Below are positions 11,806 through 34,235 of a DNA stretch of 35,756 nucleotides, in pieces. Source of the stretch: Candidatus Dormiibacterota bacterium (GTDB lineage: Bacteria > Chloroflexota > Dormibacteria > Aeolococcales > Aeolococcaceae); assembly GCA_036495095.1 (NCBI GenBank), contig DASXNK010000142.1:1-35756 (forward strand). Direction: 5' to 3'. A program made the translations under genes and the position numbers. The notes under the pieces were generated by a model. The model had not been told where the DNA came from. It made no database searches and saw only the letters and a program-made list of their open reading frames with translations. Each line of letters begins with the position of its first letter. Within the stretch, counting starts at the first letter, position 1.

Positions 11806-12828
11806 TCAGACCGCCGCGTAGAAGCGGTCGAAGAAGATGCGCCCGTCGCGCACGCCCTTGGCCTCGAGCAGCAGCGACGTGCTGTCGCACATCGGCGGAT
11901 TGCCGCAGAGGTAGACGTCGTACGGGCTGGCGTCGTGGAGGTGGCGCTGGATCGCGTTGGTGACCCTGCCCACCTCGCCGGCCCACCCGTCCCCGGGCAC
12001 CTCGACGACGGGGAGGTGGGTGAACGAGCGCAGCCGCCGGCCGATCGCCGCGATCTCGCCGGCGAGCACCACCTCCTCGGGGATGCGGGCCCCGAAGTAG
12101 AAGTGGAACTCGCGGGGATCGTCGCGCTCGACCGCCTGCTCGAGCATCGACAGGATCGGGGCGATCCCCGAGCCTCCCGCCACCAGCAGCACCGGGTCGG
12201 CGCCCTCGCGGAGGTAGCCGACGCCGTAGGGTCCGCGCACCCGCATCGGGCTGCCCCGCTCGAGCCGGTCGATCTGGCCGCTGAAGCGGCCCCCCTGGAT
12301 GCGCTTGGCGACGAACTCGGTGGTGGGCTGGCGCGACGGGGGGCTGCTGATCGAGTAGGCGCGCCAGTCGTCCTGGCTGCCGGGGACGCCCAGCTGGACG
12401 TACTGCCCGGCGTAGAAGTGAAGGGGGCGCTCGAGCTCGAGGCGCAGCCGCCAGAGGTCGCCGCCGAGGTGCTCGACCCCGGCCACCTCCGCGCGGCGCT
12501 CCTCGGGCACCAGGTCGGGGAGCATCCGCGGGTCGTTCACCGTCGAGCTCTGGATCTCCAGGTCGCAGAGCGGGATGGCGCAGCAGAGCAGCGCCCAGCC
12601 ATCCTCGCGCTCGCCGGGAGGCAGCGAGTAGGGCGAGGCGATGCCGAAGTCGACCTCGCCGTCGAGCAGGAGGTACTTGCAGCTCGAGCAGTTGCCGTGG
12701 AGGCAGCCGTACTTCAGCCGCACCCCCTGGCGGAGGGCGGCGGCGAGCACGCTCTCGCCGGGGTTGACCTCGAAGCTGCGCCCGTCGGGGGTGAGCTGGA
12801 CCTGGTGGATCTCGCTGGTCTCGGCCAC
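11806..12828 (-). CDS. Soluble diiron monooxygenase reductase (2Fe-2S/FAD/NAD, MmoC/DmpP type)
   Basis: A 340-residue electron-transfer protein that passes electrons from NAD(P)H through FAD and a 2Fe-2S cluster to a diiron hydroxylase. The N-terminal plant-type ferredoxin domain has Cys42, Cys47 and Cys50 (CLHGNCSSC) and a fourth at Cys82. The FAD domain has RAYS (156-159). The nucleotide domain has GGSGIAP (218-224) and ends with the LCGNPPM motif and the aromatic C-terminal FYAAV. The start is GTG, 10 bases after the coupling-protein stop, with no good ribosome site, so coupled translation is likely. The order beta, coupling protein, reductase matches known soluble diiron monooxygenase operons. 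Other ring-hydroxylating oxygenases use similar reductases, but the neighbours settle the role. Confidence 0.92.
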   Translation of the reverse strand: MAETSEIHQVQLTPDGRSFEVNPGESVLAAALRQGVRLKYGCLHGNCSSCKYLLLDGEVDFGIASPYSLPPGEREDGWALLCCAIPLCDLEIQSSTVNDPRMLPDLVPEERRAEVAGVEHLGGDLWRLRLELERPLHFYAGQYVQLGVPGSQDDWRAYSISSPPSRQPTTEFVAKRIQGGRFSGQIDRLERGSPMRVRGPYGVGYLREGADPVLLVAGGSGIAPILSMLEQAVERDDPREFHFYFGARIPEEVVLAGEIAAIGRRLRSFTHLPVVEVPGDGWAGEVGRVTNAIQRHLHDASPYDVYLCGNPPMCDSTSLLLEAKGVRDGRIFFDRFYAAV

Positions 12829-12838
12829 GGGGGGAGGA

Positions 12839-13180
12839 TCAGCCGGCGGCCGGGCCGGGCGCCTCCGCCTCGTCCCCCTCGAGGTAGCTCATCTCCGAGG
12901 TGACCAGGAAGTAGTCGCCGCCGGCGTGGGCGCGGCCCACGAAGGTGGCCATGGTCACCAGCCACTGGCTCAGCTGCAGCGGCCGGCCCAGTGCCTCGGC
13001 GACGTCCTCCATCTCGATGCGCAGCTCGCCCTCGCCCTCGATCTTCCAGTAGGTGCCGAAGTCGTGCACCTGAGCGTCGGGATACCGCATCTCCACCACC
13101 TCGATGGTGGCGTCGGCCTCCTCGCTCTTCATCAGGCCGAGGGCTACCTTCCGGCGCGGACCCGAGATCATCGTGCTCAT
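12839..13180 (-). CDS. Monooxygenase coupling (regulatory) protein, MmoB/DmpM family
   Basis: A 113-residue protein of the size and pattern of MmoB/DmpM effector proteins: a short variable head, the VGLxL-like MKSEEADATIEVVE strand/helix, a conserved YWKIEGEGELRIEMEDVAEALG core (residues about 44-65), and SQWLVTMATFVGR. Such cofactor-free proteins bind the hydroxylase and control oxygen activation. The ATG at 13180 overlaps the beta-subunit TGA by four bases (ATGA); a second in-frame ATG three codons later is possible. The last ~13 residues are acidic/Pro-rich and not part of the family core. Confidence 0.9.
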   Translation of the reverse strand: MSTMISGPRRKVALGLMKSEEADATIEVVEMRYPDAQVHDFGTYWKIEGEGELRIEMEDVAEALGRPLQLSQWLVTMATFVGRAHAGGDYFLVTSEMSYLEGDEAEAPGPAAG

Positions 13181-14256
13181 GTTCGGGGGACTCCCCCGCC
13201 CCCTGCCACTGGCGCCGGCGACAGGCCGAGCGCCTCCAGGAGCTCGCGCTGGCCCTGCAGCACCCCGGCGAGGGCGTCGTCGAAGGTGACCACGTCGATC
13301 CGCGCCCGGTCGAAGACGGGGCGCAGCGCGCGGGTGGCCTCGAGCACCGGCGGGGTCCAGGCGTCGATCCACTCCACGATGGTGTCGCGGTTGGCGGCGT
13401 GGCCCTCGACCGGCTCGGCGGTGACCATCCGCACCAGCTCCTCGGTGTAGGCGAGGTTGCGGCGGCGGTCGCGCTCGGTGGTGCTGACGATGAAGGGGGT
13501 GACCGAGTCGCCCCGGTGGGGGCCGCCCCGGCGCACCAGCTGGCTCATGCTCATGTCGGCGAGGATCGGCGCCACCACCAGGTTGACGGCGACGGCGAGC
13601 TCGCCCCAGTCGTCGGTGCTGAGCATCAGCCGCTCGGCGAGGGCGCGGATCGGCTGGTAGATCGGATCGTGGAGCCAGCGCTCCTTGGCGCCCGCGTCCT
13701 CGAAGCCCTCGACGCTCTCCTCGAGCGCCATCAGGTACAGCACCGCCGCCTGGGCGTGGCGCATGTGATCGAAGCCCTGGAAGCAGAGCACGTTGCCGAG
13801 GGTGTCGGAGAGGGCCTCGCGCGAGCCCACCGCGAAGGCGCGGAAGAGCGCGTACTCGAAGAAGGACCAGATCCGGTAGTGCCCGGCGACGACGTCCTGC
13901 AGCCAGGCGGCGTCGACGTCCGCGAACGCGCCGGCGCTGGCGGCGTCCTCGGTGGCCCGCTCGATCGACCGCTCCTGCTCGGCCTGCATCCGCACGTAGG
14001 TGCGCTGCCACTGCTGCGCCGGGTCGCGGAAGTCCCACCAGTGGGGATGCACCAGGCGGGTCGACTCCTTCCGCCACGCGGTGCGGTGCTCGGGACCGGG
14101 GCCGAGGGTGAACCAGCCCTCGATGTCGAACGCGTCCGGACCCGGCTGGGTGTAGCAGGTGACCGCCTCGTACTCGGAGAGGCGGCGCTTGCGCGGGGTG
14201 ATGTAGACGTGGTCGCGCGGCTGCTTGCCGAAGGCCGCTCCCGGTCCGGTGCTCAT
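13177..14256 (-). CDS. Soluble diiron monooxygenase hydroxylase beta subunit
   Basis: A 359-residue beta subunit of the propane/phenol/methane monooxygenase type, ferritin-like but without iron. Matches to the family include YITPRKRRLSEYEAVT near the start, HPHWWDFRDPAQQWQRTYVRMQ, a central FDHMRHAQAAVLYL helix, the DPIYQPIRALAERLM segment, and the late TVEWIDAWTPP-like and TFDDAL stretches. The diiron ExxH ligand pattern of alpha subunits is not present, as expected. In known enzymes beta docks on alpha to form the hydroxylase dimer. No alpha gene lies on either side. The ATG at 14256 follows AGAGGAGG by nine bases; the coupling protein overlaps the stop. The subunit assignment rests on remembered family patterns and is strong. 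Confidence 0.88.
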   Translation of the reverse strand: MSTGPGAAFGKQPRDHVYITPRKRRLSEYEAVTCYTQPGPDAFDIEGWFTLGPGPEHRTAWRKESTRLVHPHWWDFRDPAQQWQRTYVRMQAEQERSIERATEDAASAGAFADVDAAWLQDVVAGHYRIWSFFEYALFRAFAVGSREALSDTLGNVLCFQGFDHMRHAQAAVLYLMALEESVEGFEDAGAKERWLHDPIYQPIRALAERLMLSTDDWGELAVAVNLVVAPILADMSMSQLVRRGGPHRGDSVTPFIVSTTERDRRRNLAYTEELVRMVTAEPVEGHAANRDTIVEWIDAWTPPVLEATRALRPVFDRARIDVVTFDDALAGVLQGQRELLEALGLSPAPVAGGGGVPRT

Positions 14257-14342
14257 CTGCCCTGTCCTCCTCTGTGCCGCGAGGGTACGTACGCCGCCGA
14301 GCGTCCCGCCACCCCCTTTTTCCCCATGCGTGGGAATTCGTC

Positions 14343-14370
14343 GGACGCGGTCCGCGCCGCTCAGGCGGCG
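14343..14370 (-). terminator. Tandem short hairpins at the molybdoenzyme stop
   Basis: CGCCGC (14355-14360) and GCGGCG (14365-14370) form a 6-bp stem whose loop holds part of the stop codon. Directly after it on the minus strand, GGAC (14343-14346) pairs with GTCC (14350-14353). With no U-run this is at best a weak terminator or processing site between the molybdoenzyme and the oxygenase genes. Confidence 0.3.
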
Positions 14371-16598
14371 GGCACGGCCTCCACGGTCACGGGCACGCCG
14401 TTGAGGACGGCGTTGCCGGAGAGGGGGTCGACCATGCTCCCGTCGACGAGCAGGTTGACGTTGACCCCGGGGTGGGCCGCGGCCACCCGCATCGCGGTGC
14501 CCTGGTGGCCCCAGCCGTGGGGGATGCTCACCACCCCGGGCATCACCGCGTCGGTCACCTCCACGGCGATGTCGACACGGCCCACCCGCGAGCCCACCCG
14601 GGCGCGGCCGCCGTCGACGAGGCCGCGCTCGCGGGCGTCGTCGGGGTGCACCTGGAGGGTGCACCGCTCCGGGCCGCGCACCAGCACCTCGACGTTGTGC
14701 ATCCACGAGTTGTTGGACCGGAGGTGGCGGCGGCCCACCAGCACCAGGCCGCCGGCCAGCCGGTCGAGCGACCCGCGCAGCCGCTCGAGGTCGGCGAGCA
14801 GCGGCGCCGGAGCCAGCTCCACGGTGCCGGACCCGGTGCGCAGCGCGCCCGGCAGCCGGGGCCGGAGCGGCCCCAGGTCGAGGCCGTGAGGGTGGGCCAG
14901 GAGCCGCTCGAGGGTGAGCCCCCCGGGGGCCGCGCCGAAGCCGTCGCCGTAGGGGCCGACCCGCAGGTGGAGGTCGAGCAGCCGCTCCGGGCCGCGCCGC
15001 GGCGCCAGCATTCCGAGCAGCTCGGCGGGGTCGCGCCCCTCCACGCGTGAGCCGCGCAGGGTGACCGACCGCTCCACCTCCGCGGCGGCGACGGCATCGT
15101 CGAGCGCCTCCACCGGCGCCGCCGCACCCTGGCCGCCGAGGATGGCGCCGAGGCGGAGGAGCACCTCCCACTCGTCGGGGGTGCCCGGCTCCAGCGGCAG
15201 CACCGGCGGCGAGTAGTGGGCGACGTTGCGCACCGCCAGCTGCAGCAGCAGCAGGTCGTAGTGGGCGCGCGAGAGCGGCCCCGGCGCGGGCAGCACCACG
15301 TCGGCGTGCCGGGTGGTCTCGTTCACGTAGATGTCGACGCCGACCATGAAGTCGAGGCCGGCGAGGGCCCGCTCCAGCCGGCCGGCGTCGGGGTGGCTGA
15401 GCACCGGGTTGCCGGCACAGGTGATCAGCGCCCGCACCCGGCCCTCGCCGGGGGTGTCGATCTCCTCGGCGAGGCAGGCGGCGGGCAGCTCGCCGAGCAC
15501 CTCGGGCAGGCCCCGCACCCGGCTCCGCCAGCGCCCGGTGACGAAGCCGCGCCCGCGGCCGGGCACTCCCACGGTGTTGCGGGCCCCGGCGGCGGCGGCC
15601 GGGAACATCGCCCCGCCCTCGCGGTCGAGGTTGCCGGTGAGCGCGTTGAGGACGTCCACCAGCCAGCTCGCCAGGGTGCCGAACTCCTGGGTGCAGGTGC
15701 CGATGCGCCCGTAGACGGCCGCGCTCGGCGCCGCGGCGAGCTCGCGGGCGAGCCGGCGGATGGTGGCGGCGTCGACCCGGCAGACCGGGGCCACCGCCTC
15801 GGGGGTGAAGGGGGCCAGCGCGGCCCCCACCTCGTCGACCCCGCTGAGGTGGCCGGCGAGCCGCCCCGGCGCCACCAGCCCCTCGGCGAAGAGGGTGCTC
15901 GCCATCGCCGCCAGCAGGTGGGCGTCGGTGCCCGGCCGGATGGCGACGTGCTCGTCCGCCGCCTCGGCGGTGCGGCTGCGCCGCGGGTCGACCACCACCA
16001 GCCGGCCACCCCGCTCCCGCAGCCGCCGCAGCCGGCCGCGCATGTCGGGCGCGGTCATCAGGCTGCCGTTCGACTCCAGCGGGTTGGCGCCGAGGATCAG
16101 CAGGTGCTGGGTGCGGTCGACGTCGGGGACGGGGATGCTCAGCGGCGCGCCGAACATCAGCCCGCTGCTGACGTGCTTGGGCATCTGGTCGAGGGTGCTC
16201 GCCGAGTAGATGTTGGGGGTGCCGGCGGCGCGGAGCATGTGCGGGAGGTAGAGGGCGCCGGCGATCCCGTGGGCGTTGGGGTTGCCGGCGTAGACGGCGA
16301 GGGCCTGGCGGCCGTGCCCGGCGAGCACCGCGCCCAGGCCCCGCTCCACCTCGGCGAACGCCTCCTCCCAGCCCGCCGGCCGGAGCTCACCGTCGCGGCG
16401 CACCAGCGGGGTGCGCACCCGGTCGGGGTCGCGCTCCAGGGCCGACACCCCGACCGCCTTGGGGCAGATGTAGCCGTGGCTGAGGACGTCCTCGCGGTCG
16501 CCGCGCACCGAGAGCACCTCGCGATCGCGCAGCGTCAGCTCGAGACCGCAGGTGGCCTCGCAGAGCGGGCAGGTGCGCAGCGCGGTGCGGTCGGGCAT
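14361..16598 (-). CDS. Molybdopterin-dependent oxidoreductase, DMSO reductase family with 4Fe-4S site
   Basis: A 745-residue molybdenum/tungsten bis-pyranopterin enzyme. The N-terminal 4Fe-4S site is present: Cys10, Cys13, Cys17 and Cys45 (CPLCEATC...ICPKAVG). Cofactor-binding stretches include LILGANPLESNGS, VVVDPRRSRTAEAAD and the C-terminal molydopterin dinucleotide-binding domain with SNNSWMHN, VRVHPDDARERG-like and HGWGHQG motifs. At the usual Mo-ligand segment (about 130-150, SASTLDQMPKH) I see no Cys or Sec, so it is unlikely to be a typical formate dehydrogenase. There is no Tat signal, so it is cytoplasmic. It starts 10 bases after the pseudokinase gene and is 104 bases upstream of the oxygenase genes. 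The reaction is unknown. Confidence 0.88.
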   Translation of the reverse strand: MPDRTALRTCPLCEATCGLELTLRDREVLSVRGDREDVLSHGYICPKAVGVSALERDPDRVRTPLVRRDGELRPAGWEEAFAEVERGLGAVLAGHGRQALAVYAGNPNAHGIAGALYLPHMLRAAGTPNIYSASTLDQMPKHVSSGLMFGAPLSIPVPDVDRTQHLLILGANPLESNGSLMTAPDMRGRLRRLRERGGRLVVVDPRRSRTAEAADEHVAIRPGTDAHLLAAMASTLFAEGLVAPGRLAGHLSGVDEVGAALAPFTPEAVAPVCRVDAATIRRLARELAAAPSAAVYGRIGTCTQEFGTLASWLVDVLNALTGNLDREGGAMFPAAAAGARNTVGVPGRGRGFVTGRWRSRVRGLPEVLGELPAACLAEEIDTPGEGRVRALITCAGNPVLSHPDAGRLERALAGLDFMVGVDIYVNETTRHADVVLPAPGPLSRAHYDLLLLQLAVRNVAHYSPPVLPLEPGTPDEWEVLLRLGAILGGQGAAAPVEALDDAVAAAEVERSVTLRGSRVEGRDPAELLGMLAPRRGPERLLDLHLRVGPYGDGFGAAPGGLTLERLLAHPHGLDLGPLRPRLPGALRTGSGTVELAPAPLLADLERLRGSLDRLAGGLVLVGRRHLRSNNSWMHNVEVLVRGPERCTLQVHPDDARERGLVDGGRARVGSRVGRVDIAVEVTDAVMPGVVSIPHGWGHQGTAMRVAAAHPGVNVNLLVDGSMVDPLSGNAVLNGVPVTVEAVPAA

Positions 16599-16608
16599 AC
16601 CGGGCGCC

Positions 16609-17688
16609 TCAGATCTCCGGGACGGGGACGCTCCCGCTGAGGATGGTCCCGCCGCCGTCGCTGCATCGTACGACGAGCTCGCCGTCGAGCCGTCCCAGCG
16701 CCTCCTGCAGCGAGGCCAGGGCGGGGTCGAGGGGCTGGTCGGGCGAGGCCGGCCCGTCGTCCTCGACGTCGACCCCGCACCGCCGGGGCGTGTACTGGAG
16801 GGTGACCAGGACCGAGGACGCCTCCGCCCGGGTGGCGACGACGTGCAGCCCCACCCGCACCACCGCGAGCAGCACCATCTCCTGCTCGGCGAGCAGGTCG
16901 TAGGGCTCGCCGATCACCGCGAAGTCGGCGGCGAGGTCGGTGAGGCTGGCGAGGCCCTCGACGTCGACCCCGATGGCGGCGGGCAGCCCCTCGGCGACCG
17001 GCTCGAGGGCGCGGAGCACCTCCTCGAGCCAGGCGGCGGCCTCGGCGGCCTGGGCCTCGATGCTGCGAAGGTCGGCGAGGATGTCGGCGTCGGTGGTGGC
17101 GGACACAGTCTCGCTCGCCTTGTGGGCGGCCTCGCTGATGTCGATCAGCCAGGGGCCGAGGCTGGCGCAGAGGTCGCGGGAGATCCTCCGCCGCTCCTCG
17201 AGCGCGCTGCGCCGGGCGGCGCGGCCGGTGTGCATCGCCGTCCCCAGCACCGGGCCGAGCGCGGCCGCGAACTCGAGCGCGAGCCCGCGGGCACGGTCGC
17301 CGACGTGGCCCGGGGTGCGGTTCATCCCATAGAGGACGCCGATCACCTCGCCGCGGTCCTTGATGGGCACGCCGAGCATGCCGTGGACGCCCTCCTGGCG
17401 CACCAGCCGCTGGATCAGCCGCTCCGAGTCGGGGCCGACAGCGACCCGGAGGCCGTCGCGGATCATCTCGGTGCGCACCCCCCAGCCGCCCCGGGTGACG
17501 AGCGCGTCGGGCGCCTCGCGGATGCTCACCCCGGAGGCGTCGGTGCCGACGAGCTCGCCGAACTCGCGGGCGGCGCGCCGCGCCAGGGTGGTGATGTCGA
17601 GCAGGCCGGTGAGCCGTCGTGATGCCTGGGACAGCCGAACCAGGTCGTCCGCGGCCACCGAGTCCGCGAGCGCGGGACGGCGTCTCAT
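16609..17688 (-). CDS. GAF-domain histidine kinase paralogue lacking catalytic residues (pseudokinase)
   Basis: A 359-residue paralogue of the next gene upstream, alike from the N-terminal LSQASRRLTGLL to the GGELVV-like end. Its GAF domain (about 35-155) has lost about 22 residues where the partner reads DGVGGRVLGSARPVAVADY. The HisKA_3 H-box reads RISRDLCASLG: Cys174 replaces the phospho-acceptor His. The N-box reads LHVVATRA, with Val283 for the essential Asn, and the G1 box is DDGPA, not DDGTG. It should be unable to autophosphorylate by the normal route. It lies 10 bases before the molybdoenzyme gene and 80 after the intact kinase. It may act as a sensor or as a dimer partner of the intact kinase. 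The ATG has no clear ribosome site. Confidence 0.85.
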   Translation of the reverse strand: MRRRPALADSVAADDLVRLSQASRRLTGLLDITTLARRAAREFGELVGTDASGVSIREAPDALVTRGGWGVRTEMIRDGLRVAVGPDSERLIQRLVRQEGVHGMLGVPIKDRGEVIGVLYGMNRTPGHVGDRARGLALEFAAALGPVLGTAMHTGRAARRSALEERRRISRDLCASLGPWLIDISEAAHKASETVSATTDADILADLRSIEAQAAEAAAWLEEVLRALEPVAEGLPAAIGVDVEGLASLTDLAADFAVIGEPYDLLAEQEMVLLAVVRVGLHVVATRAEASSVLVTLQYTPRRCGVDVEDDGPASPDQPLDPALASLQEALGRLDGELVVRCSDGGGTILSGSVPVPEI

Positions 17689-17768
17689 GGGCGCAACGAT
17701 CGCGGCCGCACCGGTGGGCTGGGAATCCCCCGTTGTGAGTCAGGCTTTGCCGGAAAGAGGCGGGGACC

Positions 17769-18944
17769 TCAGGAGGTGCCGGTGGGGAGGCTCGCGTGGA
17801 GGGTCATGCCCCCGTCCTCGTTGGCCCCCAGCACCAGCTCGCCGCCGACCCGGGCGAGCCGCTGGCTCAGCGACGCCAGCCCGTAGTGGCAGCCGTCCCG
17901 GGGCACGTCGGTGACCGTGAAGTCCTCCGGCAGCCCGGTTCCGTCGTCCTGGATGAGCACGTCGGCGCTGTCCACGCCGTAGTGGAGGGTGATCACCACC
18001 GAGCTGGCGTGGGCGTGCTTGCCCACGTTGTGCAGGCCCTCCCGGACCACCGCCACCAGCACCGACTCCTGCTCACCGCTGAGCTCGTACGGCTCGCCGA
18101 TGACCGCGAGGTCGGCGGCGATCCCGGTGAAGTTCGCGAAGCTGCTCACGTCCATCCTGACCACCGCGGGGAGCCCCTCCTCGCTGTTGGCGGGGGCGAG
18201 GGCGCGGAGGATGTCGCGGAGCGAGGACGCCGCCTGCGAGGCCCGGGCCTCGATGCACCTCAGCTCGGTGAGCAGGTCCTCGGCGGCGGCGGGCAGGGCG
18301 TCGCTGGTGCGCCGCACCGCGGTGCCGATGCCGAAGAGCAGCGGGCTGAGGTTGTCGTGGAGGTCGCGCGAGATCCGCTGACGCTCCTCGAGCGCGCTCA
18401 GCCGCGAGGCGCGGCGGGCGTGCATGGCCGCGCCCAGCGCCGGACCCAGCGTGCCGGCGAACTCCACCGCCAGGGTCTGGGCGCGATCGCCGATCTCGCC
18501 GGGCGACCGGTTGGCCGCATAGAGCACGCCGATCACCCGTCCGCGGAAGCAGATCGGCACGCCGAGCATCGCCCGGACGCCCTCGGTGCGCATCGACTCG
18601 ACCAGCCGCGGCGAGATCGAGCTCTCGCAGTTGTAGTCGGCGACCGCCACCGGACGCGCCGAGCCCAGCACCCGCCCGCCGACGCCGTCGCCCATGGGGA
18701 TCTCGAGGCCGTTGCGCACCCGGTCGTTGCGGATGTGCCAGCCGGCCCGGGTCACCACCAGGTTCTGCCCCTCGCGCAGACCCAGCGCGGTGACGTCGGT
18801 GCCCACCAGCGCGCCGAGCTCGCGGGTCGCGCGCCCGGCGATCGTGGAGGCGTTCAGCAGACCGGTGACCCGGCGCGACGCCGCCGAGAGTTTGAGCAGG
18901 TCCGCGACGGCAACACAGGCAGAGCCGTCGTCCCTGGATGGCAT
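17769..18944 (-). CDS. GAF-domain sensor histidine kinase (HisKA_3 / NarL-partner type)
   Basis: A 391-residue soluble kinase. A short helix is followed by a GAF domain (about 35-175, with GVPICFRGRVIGVLYAANRS as the typical GAF strand), a HisKA_3 dimerisation helix with His196 in RISRDLHDNLSP, and an ATPase domain with N-box EGLHNVGKHA (Asn306), G1 DDGTG (333-337) and the G2 GLASL segment. It resembles the C-terminal parts of DevS/DosT and NreB kinases, which sense gases or redox state through GAF or PAS cofactors; the ligand here is not evident. No response regulator is adjacent. Known partners of this class are NarL/LuxR regulators, such as those at 1-390 and 25355-25975. The start ATG has GGAGG nine bases upstream. 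Confidence 0.9.
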   Translation of the reverse strand: MPSRDDGSACVAVADLLKLSAASRRVTGLLNASTIAGRATRELGALVGTDVTALGLREGQNLVVTRAGWHIRNDRVRNGLEIPMGDGVGGRVLGSARPVAVADYNCESSISPRLVESMRTEGVRAMLGVPICFRGRVIGVLYAANRSPGEIGDRAQTLAVEFAGTLGPALGAAMHARRASRLSALEERQRISRDLHDNLSPLLFGIGTAVRRTSDALPAAAEDLLTELRCIEARASQAASSLRDILRALAPANSEEGLPAVVRMDVSSFANFTGIAADLAVIGEPYELSGEQESVLVAVVREGLHNVGKHAHASSVVITLHYGVDSADVLIQDDGTGLPEDFTVTDVPRDGCHYGLASLSQRLARVGGELVLGANEDGGMTLHASLPTGTS

Positions 18945-22846: not shown

Positions 22847-24064
22847 TCAGGCTTCGACCAGCTCCGGCGAGGGCGTCATCAGGTGGTGGTGCTCTGCGAG
22901 GTACTCGCGGAGGGCGATCAGGGCGGCGATGCCGTCGCCGACGGCGGAGCCGAGCTGCTTGGTCGAGCCCTGGCGGGCGTCGCCGGCGGCGAAGATGCCG
23001 CCCTGGCTGGTGCGGAAGCGGCCGTCGGTGCGGATGAAGCCGCGCTCGTCGAGGTCGACGAGGCCGCGCAGGAAGCCGGTGTTGGGGTCGAGCCCGATGA
23101 AGACGAAGGCGGCGGCGGGCTGGAGCACGGTCTCGTCCCCGCTGGCCCGGTCGCGGATCACCACCTCGGAGAGCCGGTGGTCGCCGCGCAGCTCCTTCAC
23201 CTCGCTCCCGAGGTGGACGGCGAAGCGTGGATCGTCGGTCACCCGGTCGACCAGCAGCCGTGAGGCGGTGAGCTCGGGCTCGCGCTGGACGATGTGGACC
23301 TTCTTCGTGAACTGGGTGAGGAACACCCCCTCCTCGAGCGCGGAGTTACCCCCGCCGACCACCACCAGCTCGTCGCTGCCGCGGTAGAAGGGGCCGTCGC
23401 AGGTGGCGCAGAAATGGACGCCGGCGCCGATCAGGTCGTCCTCGCCGGGGACACCGAGGCGGCGGTAGGTCGATCCCGGGGCGGCGAGCACGGCGTGGGC
23501 GGCGATCCGCTGCCCCGAGCCCAGCCGGAGGCAGAGGTCGTCGCCGTCGCGGTCGATCGCCTCGACACCGACCGCGGAGAGCAGCTCGACCCCGTAGCGG
23601 CGGGCCTGGGCGATGAAGCGGTCGGCGAGCTCGCCCCCGCCCACGCCCTCGGGGAAGCCGGGATAGTTGTCGATGCGCTCGGTCACCCCGGCCTGGCCGC
23701 CGAGGGCGCTGCGATCGACGACGATCGCGTCGATGCCCTCGCGGGCGGCGTAGATCGCCGCCGCCAGGCCGGCCGGGCCGCCGCCGACGATGGCCAGGTC
23801 GTAGAAGGGACGCTGGGCCTCGAGGGTCAGCCCCAGCCGCCCGGCCAGCTCCTCGTTGGAGGGGTCGATGAGGGGATCGCCGTCCCTGAACACGACCGTG
23901 GGGATGGTGCGGCCGCCCTTCTGCAGCTCCTCGACGATCCGCAGCCCCTCGGCGTCCTGGTCGATGTCGACCCAGTCGTAGGCGACCCGCTGCTCGCCGA
24001 GGAACTTCTTCGCACGCCGGCAGTCGGGGCACCACGGCGCCCCGTAGACGGTCACCTCGGCCAT
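22847..24064 (-). CDS. trxB: Glutaredoxin-thioredoxin reductase fusion flavoprotein
   Basis: A 405-residue fusion. Residues 1-80 form a glutaredoxin/NrdH-like domain with a CPDC redox pair (Cys12, Cys15) and the cis-Pro loop TIPTVVF. Residues 88-400 form a low-molecular-weight thioredoxin reductase: FAD site GGGPAG (94-99), redox pair CATC (Cys219, Cys222), the second nucleotide site VVGGGNSA (236-243), and C-terminal GIFAAGDAR. The attached domain probably acts as a built-in electron acceptor, carrying electrons from NADPH to disulphide substrates. The ATG at 24064 has GGAGG six bases upstream. It is a single-gene unit by spacing, 95 bases after the Fic gene. Confidence 0.93.
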   Translation of the reverse strand: MAEVTVYGAPWCPDCRRAKKFLGEQRVAYDWVDIDQDAEGLRIVEELQKGGRTIPTVVFRDGDPLIDPSNEELAGRLGLTLEAQRPFYDLAIVGGGPAGLAAAIYAAREGIDAIVVDRSALGGQAGVTERIDNYPGFPEGVGGGELADRFIAQARRYGVELLSAVGVEAIDRDGDDLCLRLGSGQRIAAHAVLAAPGSTYRRLGVPGEDDLIGAGVHFCATCDGPFYRGSDELVVVGGGNSALEEGVFLTQFTKKVHIVQREPELTASRLLVDRVTDDPRFAVHLGSEVKELRGDHRLSEVVIRDRASGDETVLQPAAAFVFIGLDPNTGFLRGLVDLDERGFIRTDGRFRTSQGGIFAAGDARQGSTKQLGSAVGDGIAALIALREYLAEHHHLMTPSPELVEA

Positions 24065-25354: not shown

Positions 25355-25975
25355 CTAGATCAGTCCGCGCCGCGAGGCGACCACCACGGTCTCGACGCGG
25401 TTGCGGGTCTGCAGCTTCTCCTGGGCGGAGCGGACGTACGTCTTCACGGTCTGCTCGCCGATGCCGAGCTCGCCGGCGATCTCGCTGTTGCTGAGGCCGC
25501 GCGCCACCAGCTTGATCACCTGGGTCTCGCGGGGCGAGAGCAGGCTGCTGCCGCCGCGTGGCACCACCAGCTCGCTGACCACCTTGGGATCGAAGACCTG
25601 GCCGCCGCGGGCGATGCGGAGCACGGCGTGGACGAGGTCGTAGCGCTCCACGTCCTTGAGCAGGTAGCCCTGCGCCCCCAGCGACATGTAGTCGCGGGCC
25701 ATCCCGGTCTCGAGGAAGGCGCTGAGCACCACGATCCGCACCTCGGGGGCGCTCTGGCGCAGCGCGACGCAGACGTCGAGCCCGCTGATCCCCGGCAGCC
25801 GCGAGTCGAGCACGAGAATGTCCGGGTGGAGCGCGGGCACCTCCTGGACGGCCGCCTCACCGGTGCCCCACTCCCCCACCACCTCGATGCGGGGGTCCTC
25901 GGTGAGCACCCGGCGGATGCCCTCGCGGACCAGCTCGTGGTCGTCGACGATGCCGACGCGGATGGTCTCAGCCAC
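25355..25975 (-). CDS. NarL/LuxR-family response regulator
   Basis: A 206-residue two-domain regulator. The receiver domain (1-120) has the acidic pocket DDH (11-13), phospho-acceptor Asp57 in LVLDSRL, a Ser in the VLSAF switch position and Lys in YLLKD. The LuxR-type helix-turn-helix follows (about 143-205: LSPRETQVIKLVARGLSNSEIAGELGIGEQTVKTYVRSAQEKL). The GTG start lies inside the end of the histidine kinase gene (8-base overlap, GTGGCTGA), so the two are translationally coupled and are surely partners. It should bind DNA when phosphorylated. Possible targets are the divergent hydrolase promoter or its own. Confidence 0.95.
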   Translation of the reverse strand: MAETIRVGIVDDHELVREGIRRVLTEDPRIEVVGEWGTGEAAVQEVPALHPDILVLDSRLPGISGLDVCVALRQSAPEVRIVVLSAFLETGMARDYMSLGAQGYLLKDVERYDLVHAVLRIARGGQVFDPKVVSELVVPRGGSSLLSPRETQVIKLVARGLSNSEIAGELGIGEQTVKTYVRSAQEKLQTRNRVETVVVASRRGLI

Positions 25976-32874: not shown

Positions 32875-32908
32875 GCCGGGGGCCGACCCCGCGCCCTCCC
32901 GGGTCAGG
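32870..32908. terminator. Candidate two-way terminator between convergent genes
   Basis: CCTGA (32870-32874) and TCAGG (32904-32908) pair across the region and include both stop codons. Inside, CGGGG (32877-32881) pairs with CCCCG (32887-32891). The outer pairing partly follows from two TGA stops, so only the inner stem adds weight. No T-run. Confidence 0.3.
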
Positions 32909-34235
32909 CGTCGGGCACCCAGCTGCCGTGGAAGCCGAAGGGCACCCGCTGGGGCAGCTCGACGCTCGCCACCGGCGGGGCGGCGAGGTCGGCCGCGTCG
33001 AGGATCACCAGCTGGGAGCGGTCGGTGGCGGCGTCGTGGAGGTAGGTGAGCAGCCACCCGTCCCCCTCGGCGCCGCCCTCGGCGGGGGCGAAGACCGCCT
33101 CGCCGGGGACGCGGCCGGGCCCGAAGTCGTGGCCCACGGTGGCGCCGGTGGCGAGGTCGTAGCGGACCAGCGCCGTCGCCGTGCCACCGAGCAGGTCGCC
33201 CGCGAGGGCGTAGCCGTACCGGTGGGGCAGGCCGGTGCGGCGCTCGTCGAGGCGGGGAAACTCGATGTGCCGGTCGTCGAGGGCGCCCTCGGAGACGGTG
33301 CCGGCCTCGAGGTCGACGGTCCAGCGGTGGAGCGTCGACGGTGGGAGGGTCTCGCCGCCGGGCCCGTCGCGCCACAGGTCGGGGTAGCGCACCGCGTCGA
33401 GCACCACGCTGCCTCCCTCGTCGTGGGCGTTGAGGGTGTGGAACACGTAGCAGGGCTCGATCTCGAACCAGCGCACCGGGGCGCCGGGGACGTCCCGGGG
33501 CATCACCCCGATGCGGGCGCCGTGGCTGTCGCTCCAGCGGTACGGCATGGTGCCCTGCATCGCCAGGCCGATGTCGAAGAGCACCGGCAGGTCGAGGAAC
33601 ACCACGTGCCCGCGGGTGATCGCGAAGTCGTGGATCATCGCCGGCCCGGGTACCTCGATCACCCGGCTCTCCACCAGCGCGCCGCCGGCGTCGCAGCGGT
33701 GGTAGGTGAGGTGGGGTGGCATGAACCCGTAGCCGAAGAAGTGCAGCTCGCCGGTGACCGGGCACTCCTTGGGATGGGCGGTCATCGCGGTGGCGAGGCG
33801 GCCGTCCATGTCGCTGACGCCCACGGTCTCGAGCTCGGGGGTCAGCTCGGTGGGCAGCGAGGACTCGACGAGCGCGTAGAGACGCCCGGCGTGGTGGACG
33901 ATGTGGGTGTTGGCGACGCCGACGCTCAGGTCCACGGTGAGGTCGGGGCGCAGGAAGGGGGCGCCCTCGAGCGCCCGGGTGCGCACCCAGCGGTTGCGGT
34001 ACCAGGCGGCCCGGCCCTCCTCGAGGCGCACCCCGTGGATCATGCCGTCGCCGAGGAACCAGTGCGGCGACGCGCCGTCGCGGGGGTTCGGCCCGTTCCG
34101 CAGGAAGCGGCCGTTGAGGCCCTCGGGGATCCGGCCGCGGACCGGGAGGTCGAGGGTGGTCAGCTCCTCGTGGACCGGGGCGAAGTTCCCGCGCAGGTGG
34201 AAGGGCAGGGTGCCGGTGACGCCGCTCACGCTCAT
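32904..34235 (-). CDS. Carotenoid oxygenase (RPE65/CCD family)
   Basis: A 443-residue non-haem Fe(II) dioxygenase of the carotenoid/stilbene cleavage family. The four iron-binding His positions are visible: TAHPKECP, MIHDFAIT, VFHTLNAHDE and the C-terminal FGFHGSW. The N-terminal GNFAPVHEE and RFLRNGPNP segments are standard. It lacks a signal peptide, so it is cytoplasmic or membrane-associated. It would split a carotenoid, apocarotenoid or stilbene double bond into aldehydes or ketones; the substrate cannot be read from the sequence, and no carotenoid synthesis gene is in the window. The ATG has GAGGGGGACC upstream. The gene converges on the enoyl-CoA hydratase. Confidence 0.93.
   Translation of the reverse strand: MSVSGVTGTLPFHLRGNFAPVHEELTTLDLPVRGRIPEGLNGRFLRNGPNPRDGASPHWFLGDGMIHGVRLEEGRAAWYRNRWVRTRALEGAPFLRPDLTVDLSVGVANTHIVHHAGRLYALVESSLPTELTPELETVGVSDMDGRLATAMTAHPKECPVTGELHFFGYGFMPPHLTYHRCDAGGALVESRVIEVPGPAMIHDFAITRGHVVFLDLPVLFDIGLAMQGTMPYRWSDSHGARIGVMPRDVPGAPVRWFEIEPCYVFHTLNAHDEGGSVVLDAVRYPDLWRDGPGGETLPPSTLHRWTVDLEAGTVSEGALDDRHIEFPRLDERRTGLPHRYGYALAGDLLGGTATALVRYDLATGATVGHDFGPGRVPGEAVFAPAEGGAEGDGWLLTYLHDAATDRSQLVILDAADLAAPPVASVELPQRVPFGFHGSWVPDA

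Follow-up and report, generated by a model that had tools for sequence, protein, structure and literature searches.

Within the 35,756-nucleotide window analyzed here, from a soil Chloroflexi bacterium, the minus strand encodes two neighbouring histidine kinase copies in head-to-tail arrangement, the second of which carries a cysteine at the position of the phospho-acceptor histidine, raising the question of whether this copy is a duplicate in decay or a protein kept for a function other than catalysis. The first gene, K1 (17769..18944), encodes an intact soluble GAF-HisKA_3-HATPase histidine kinase of 391 aa with its phospho-acceptor at His196. Its Pfam matches to GAF (1.1e-14), HisKA_3 (3.5e-11) and HATPase_c (5.1e-07) each exceed the cut-off, giving K1 both the HisKA_3 and the HATPase_c domain of an active DesK-type kinase, and its closest solved structures are DesK and DevS/DosS. 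The second gene, K2 (16609..17688), encodes a 359 aa paralogue in which Cys174 replaces the acceptor. In BLASTP the two proteins are 48% identical across 380 aligned columns (E = 2e-105), a match that identifies them as true paralogues. An initial annotation had described a kinase pair with one pseudokinase copy, and both genes and all of the lesions that it named were recovered by alignment.

The lesions of K2 extend through the catalytic core and set it apart from K1 and from every paralogue aligned. At the acceptor, SRDLHDN (His196) in K1 becomes SRDLCAS (Cys174) in K2, and the Asp adjacent to the acceptor is also replaced, by Ala or Glu in the K2 proteins. The N-box REGLHNVGKHA is changed to RVGLHVVATRA, with Glu and Asn each replaced by Val, and the G1 motif DDGTG to DDGPA, in which DDG itself is intact and the final glycine is gone. 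The Cys, the Val for Asn and the broken DDGTG were all as annotated, and the predicted loss of about 22 residues from the GAF domain is a 23-residue deletion relative to K1. This list of lesions was correct but somewhat understated, as it omitted the loss of the G2 glycine (GLASL to ALASL) and an ATP lid shortened by about 9 residues relative to K1. The Cys174 codon (17167..17169, minus strand) differs from that of the histidine by two base changes (CAC to TGC), which a single sequencing error would not produce, and TGC is present in both genomes that carry the gene; sequencing error at this codon was ruled out.

The domain searches agree with the motifs. In K2 the GAF domain alone exceeds its Pfam cut-off; HisKA_3 falls below it (13.9 bits vs 24) and HATPase_c was undetected in the same search, and the protein thus does not show the domain pair of an active DesK-type kinase above cut-off. 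Judged from its sequence, K2 is a HisKA_3 family member by descent, given its identity to K1, and not as an active kinase. The acceptor histidine is present in all 21 HisKA_3 matches of the host genome, K1 included. Histidine pseudokinases are recognized by the loss of the acceptor histidine or of the ATP-binding motifs, and K2 shows such loss; because both the acceptor and the ATP site are gone, its motifs predict that it is unable to autophosphorylate.

A scan of the genome contigs for K2 returned a single orthologue, in another member of the genus, the MAG Chloroflexi CF_96 (VBHE01000204.1), with 72% identity. This protein matches K2 in the Cys (again encoded by TGC), in both N-box Val residues, in its shortened lid and in an identical GAF deletion, and conservation of K2 therefore rests on two sequences, one orthologue being known. 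In CF_96 the K1 orthologue directly precedes that of K2 (85% identity over the portion on the contig), and the K2 orthologue is followed by a molybdopterin oxidoreductase (87% identity) and then a hydroxylase (86% over the portion held). The order K1, K2, molybdopterin oxidoreductase, MmoY-like hydroxylase beta is conserved in both genomes. Among 110 genomes of the class, K2 had no match at E<=1e-30 outside the genus, and the oxidoreductase and hydroxylase had no comparable match elsewhere at strict thresholds. Phylogenetic analysis places the K2 proteins in one clade (100/100) among active paralogues, with a stem of 0.62 following duplication and shorter tips, and does not resolve any single active paralogue as nearest relative. 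Loss of autophosphorylation, as read from the altered acceptor His, N-box (Glu and Asn), glycines of G1 and G2, and lid, would predate the split between the two species. A search of the genus identified four kinases related to K2 in the host genome: K1 itself and one each on contigs 43, 206 and 31. Most of these have counterparts in other members, and K1 and K2 probably originated from an expansion of soluble GAF histidine kinases inside the genus.

Selection on K2 was estimated by codon maximum likelihood (GY94, F3x4). The omega of K2 is 0.089, with a 2dlnL of 151 against omega = 1, from two sequences only; K1 and the oxidoreductase each give 0.064, and two pairs of active paralogues 0.077 and 0.054. 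K2 has thus changed at a somewhat higher rate than K1. Its least constrained domain is the catalytic and ATP-binding (CA) domain, with an omega of 0.138 vs 0.058 for the GAF domain and 0.053 for the DHp dimerization helices; weakest constraint on CA is what a loss of ATP binding would predict. Since GC3 is about 0.96, dS estimates are model-dependent and counting methods biased, and these place omega at 0.43-0.50 as compared with 0.09-0.10 by codon maximum likelihood; every estimate is below 1, which argues that K2 is maintained. GC content at the three codon positions of K2 (0.79/0.51/0.96) is similar to that of active genes. The annotation had argued for a kept function rather than decay from the open frame, a weak argument alone in DNA of 74% GC and one made unnecessary by the orthologue; the check it proposed, an orthologue alignment with inspection of the Cys and of dN/dS, found the Cys conserved and omega low, and so bore out its conclusion. 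Simple decay is refuted by the identical lesions of the orthologue together with this omega. That K2 is a decaying duplicate at an early stage of loss would fit its many missing catalytic residues, its GAF deletion and its somewhat faster evolution, but is extremely improbable given that the same lesions are frozen in both species, that the frame is intact in both, that the likelihood test speaks against omega = 1, and that codon-position GC resembles that of active genes. Both its pseudokinase status and its retention under purifying selection as a non-catalytic protein are well supported by these comparisons.

Structure predictions for K1 and K2 were built from 4-row alignments and both are low-confidence. 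The K2 model (mean pLDDT 55.8) still shows the DHp helices, and its CA domain folds like that of DesK; at that confidence, it matches the ATP-binding domain of DesK with a TM score of 0.85, and its top Foldseek matches are likewise DesK.

The genes that follow K2 on the minus strand suggest what the pair may control. Starting 10 bases after K2 is a molybdopterin oxidoreductase (14361..16598), a member of the formate dehydrogenase/DMSO reductase superfamily; it is followed by an MmoY-like soluble diiron monooxygenase hydroxylase beta subunit (13177..14349, with the true start inside this stretch), an MmoB/DmpM coupling protein and a monooxygenase reductase with Fer2, FAD and NAD domains (11806..12828). 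The open frame of the coupling protein spans 12839..14077, but only its final ~110 codons (about 12839-13180) form the real gene; the remainder overlaps the hydroxylase gene. The alpha subunit is absent from this contig; an MmoX-like alpha whose DExRH motifs (DEVRH and DEARH) are intact is located on contig 206 (L041 11945-13492, plus strand), approximately 3 kb from the paralogous GAF kinase P206, so that two members of the kinase family adjoin parts of a soluble diiron monooxygenase. A soluble methane/butane-type monooxygenase is apparently split across two loci in this soil Chloroflexi bacterium (window 11806-14349, minus strand, and contig 206). In mycobacteria, MimR/MimS is a two-component system of a monooxygenase. 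No response regulator gene lies beside K1 and K2, the two on the contig being at 25-366 and 25622-25954. Within the 80-base gap between K1 and K2 (17689..17768, minus strand), positions 17718-17739 form a 22-base block that is identical in the orthologous locus and present in one copy per genome in both, as compared with a longest match of mean 7 and maximum 13 in shuffled sequence; it was found nowhere else in the genus with up to 3 mismatches. This block may act as promoter or operator for K2 and the downstream genes. No sigma-70 promoter or terminator consensus was found in the region. Elsewhere in the window are genes for a glutaredoxin domain fused to a pyridine nucleotide-disulphide oxidoreductase (22847-24064, minus strand) and an RPE65-type carotenoid oxygenase (32904-34235, minus strand, E 8e-124).

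K2 is probably a non-catalytic partner that tunes K1, or binds the response regulator presumed to serve K1, and through it controls the oxidoreductase/monooxygenase operon. Pairing with K1 would most likely occur via the retained HisKA_3 dimerization helices; alternatively, K2 may sequester the K1 response regulator. By either route, K2 would tune K1 signalling to the downstream molybdopterin oxidoreductase and soluble diiron monooxygenase genes. The GAF domain is the most conserved part of K2 (81% identity between orthologues, vs 62% for CA), which could point to a ligand-binding role outside two-component signalling with the shortened GAF as the working part. However, the stretch deleted from K2 usually helps to line the ligand pocket in GAF folds and the DHp region is likewise constrained, making this very unlikely. 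A K2 that acts alone, holding or sensing a phosphorylated response regulator without pairing with K1, is also unlikely; it would account for the retained and strongly constrained DHp and has a precedent in DivL (PMC5361649), but the tandem position beside an intact close paralogue favours pairing, and the change of the acceptor-adjacent Asp counts against it.

The initial annotation further suggested that the Cys could sense redox state or be modified. Cys174 is the sole Cys common to both K2 proteins and lies in RRRISRDLC[AE]SLGPW, where 14 of 15 residues are identical between orthologues, one of the two most conserved stretches of K2; together with a neighbouring operon of redox enzymes, this is compatible with redox sensing or modification of Cys174. 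That K2 is a redox sensor, reporting the oxidized or modified state of Cys174 to K1 or a response regulator, nonetheless seems quite unlikely, as a single Cys per chain requires either a small thiol or a second thiol on the other subunit of the dimer, and the region around Cys174 is conserved across all paralogues regardless. More specifically, the Cys of the dead subunit in a K1-K2 heterodimer could be a redox switch setting the activity of the live subunit, and thereby controlling the molybdenum oxidoreductase/diiron monooxygenase operon, a highly improbable arrangement on present indications.

The acceptor histidine is reportedly missing from approximately 1% of histidine kinases, and few such pseudokinases have been studied; the replacements exemplified are Tyr, Gln, Asn, Arg and Asp, with Cys not among them (PMC5361649). 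No Cys-for-His histidine kinase was found in the literature searched, which was covered in part. Pseudokinases of this type are already known in DivL, FasC and ChrS-CA-fs, and it is the Cys replacement that is unusual in K2. DivL of Caulobacter, with Tyr for His, is the inactive partner of CckA and, like K2, has a histidine kinase fold kept by selection without its acceptor, acting on another kinase (PMC5361649); it is, however, PAS-based and couples two pathways, whereas K2 is soluble, GAF-based and encoded next to its own paralogue, with Cys at the acceptor position and its ATP site lost. FasB and FasC of Streptococcus resemble K1 and K2 as adjacent sensor kinases that work as a heterodimer in which FasC is proposed to be catalytically inactive (PMC12675982). 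FasC, however, retains H246 as its acceptor and has the gene for FasA alongside, whereas K2 lacks both an acceptor and a response regulator next to it. In Corynebacterium glutamicum, the pseudokinase variant ChrS-CA-fs, a CA-domain frameshift from laboratory evolution, forms heterodimers with HrrS and confers greater heme tolerance than deletion (PMC9491836). As proposed for K2, this is an inactive kinase working with an active paralogue, although the ChrS variant is laboratory-made, whereas K2 is a conserved natural protein. DesK and DevS/DosS share the HisKA_3 type with K1, and DosS also carries GAF domains; they are catalytically active, whereas K2 is expected to be inactive. K1 and K2, soluble and in tandem, combine close active paralogues, a single operon and a conserved Cys; they offer a compact system for studying the function of a dead subunit in two-component signalling, and hint at monooxygenase regulation in a little-known soil lineage.

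The active paralogues P43 and P25 lie downstream of a short-chain dehydrogenase gene (L040 772-4478 and L043 97-2116, both minus strand). At L040 the next gene encodes a radical-SAM FO synthase-like protein (823 aa, CofH_C), a hint of F420-linked redox metabolism.
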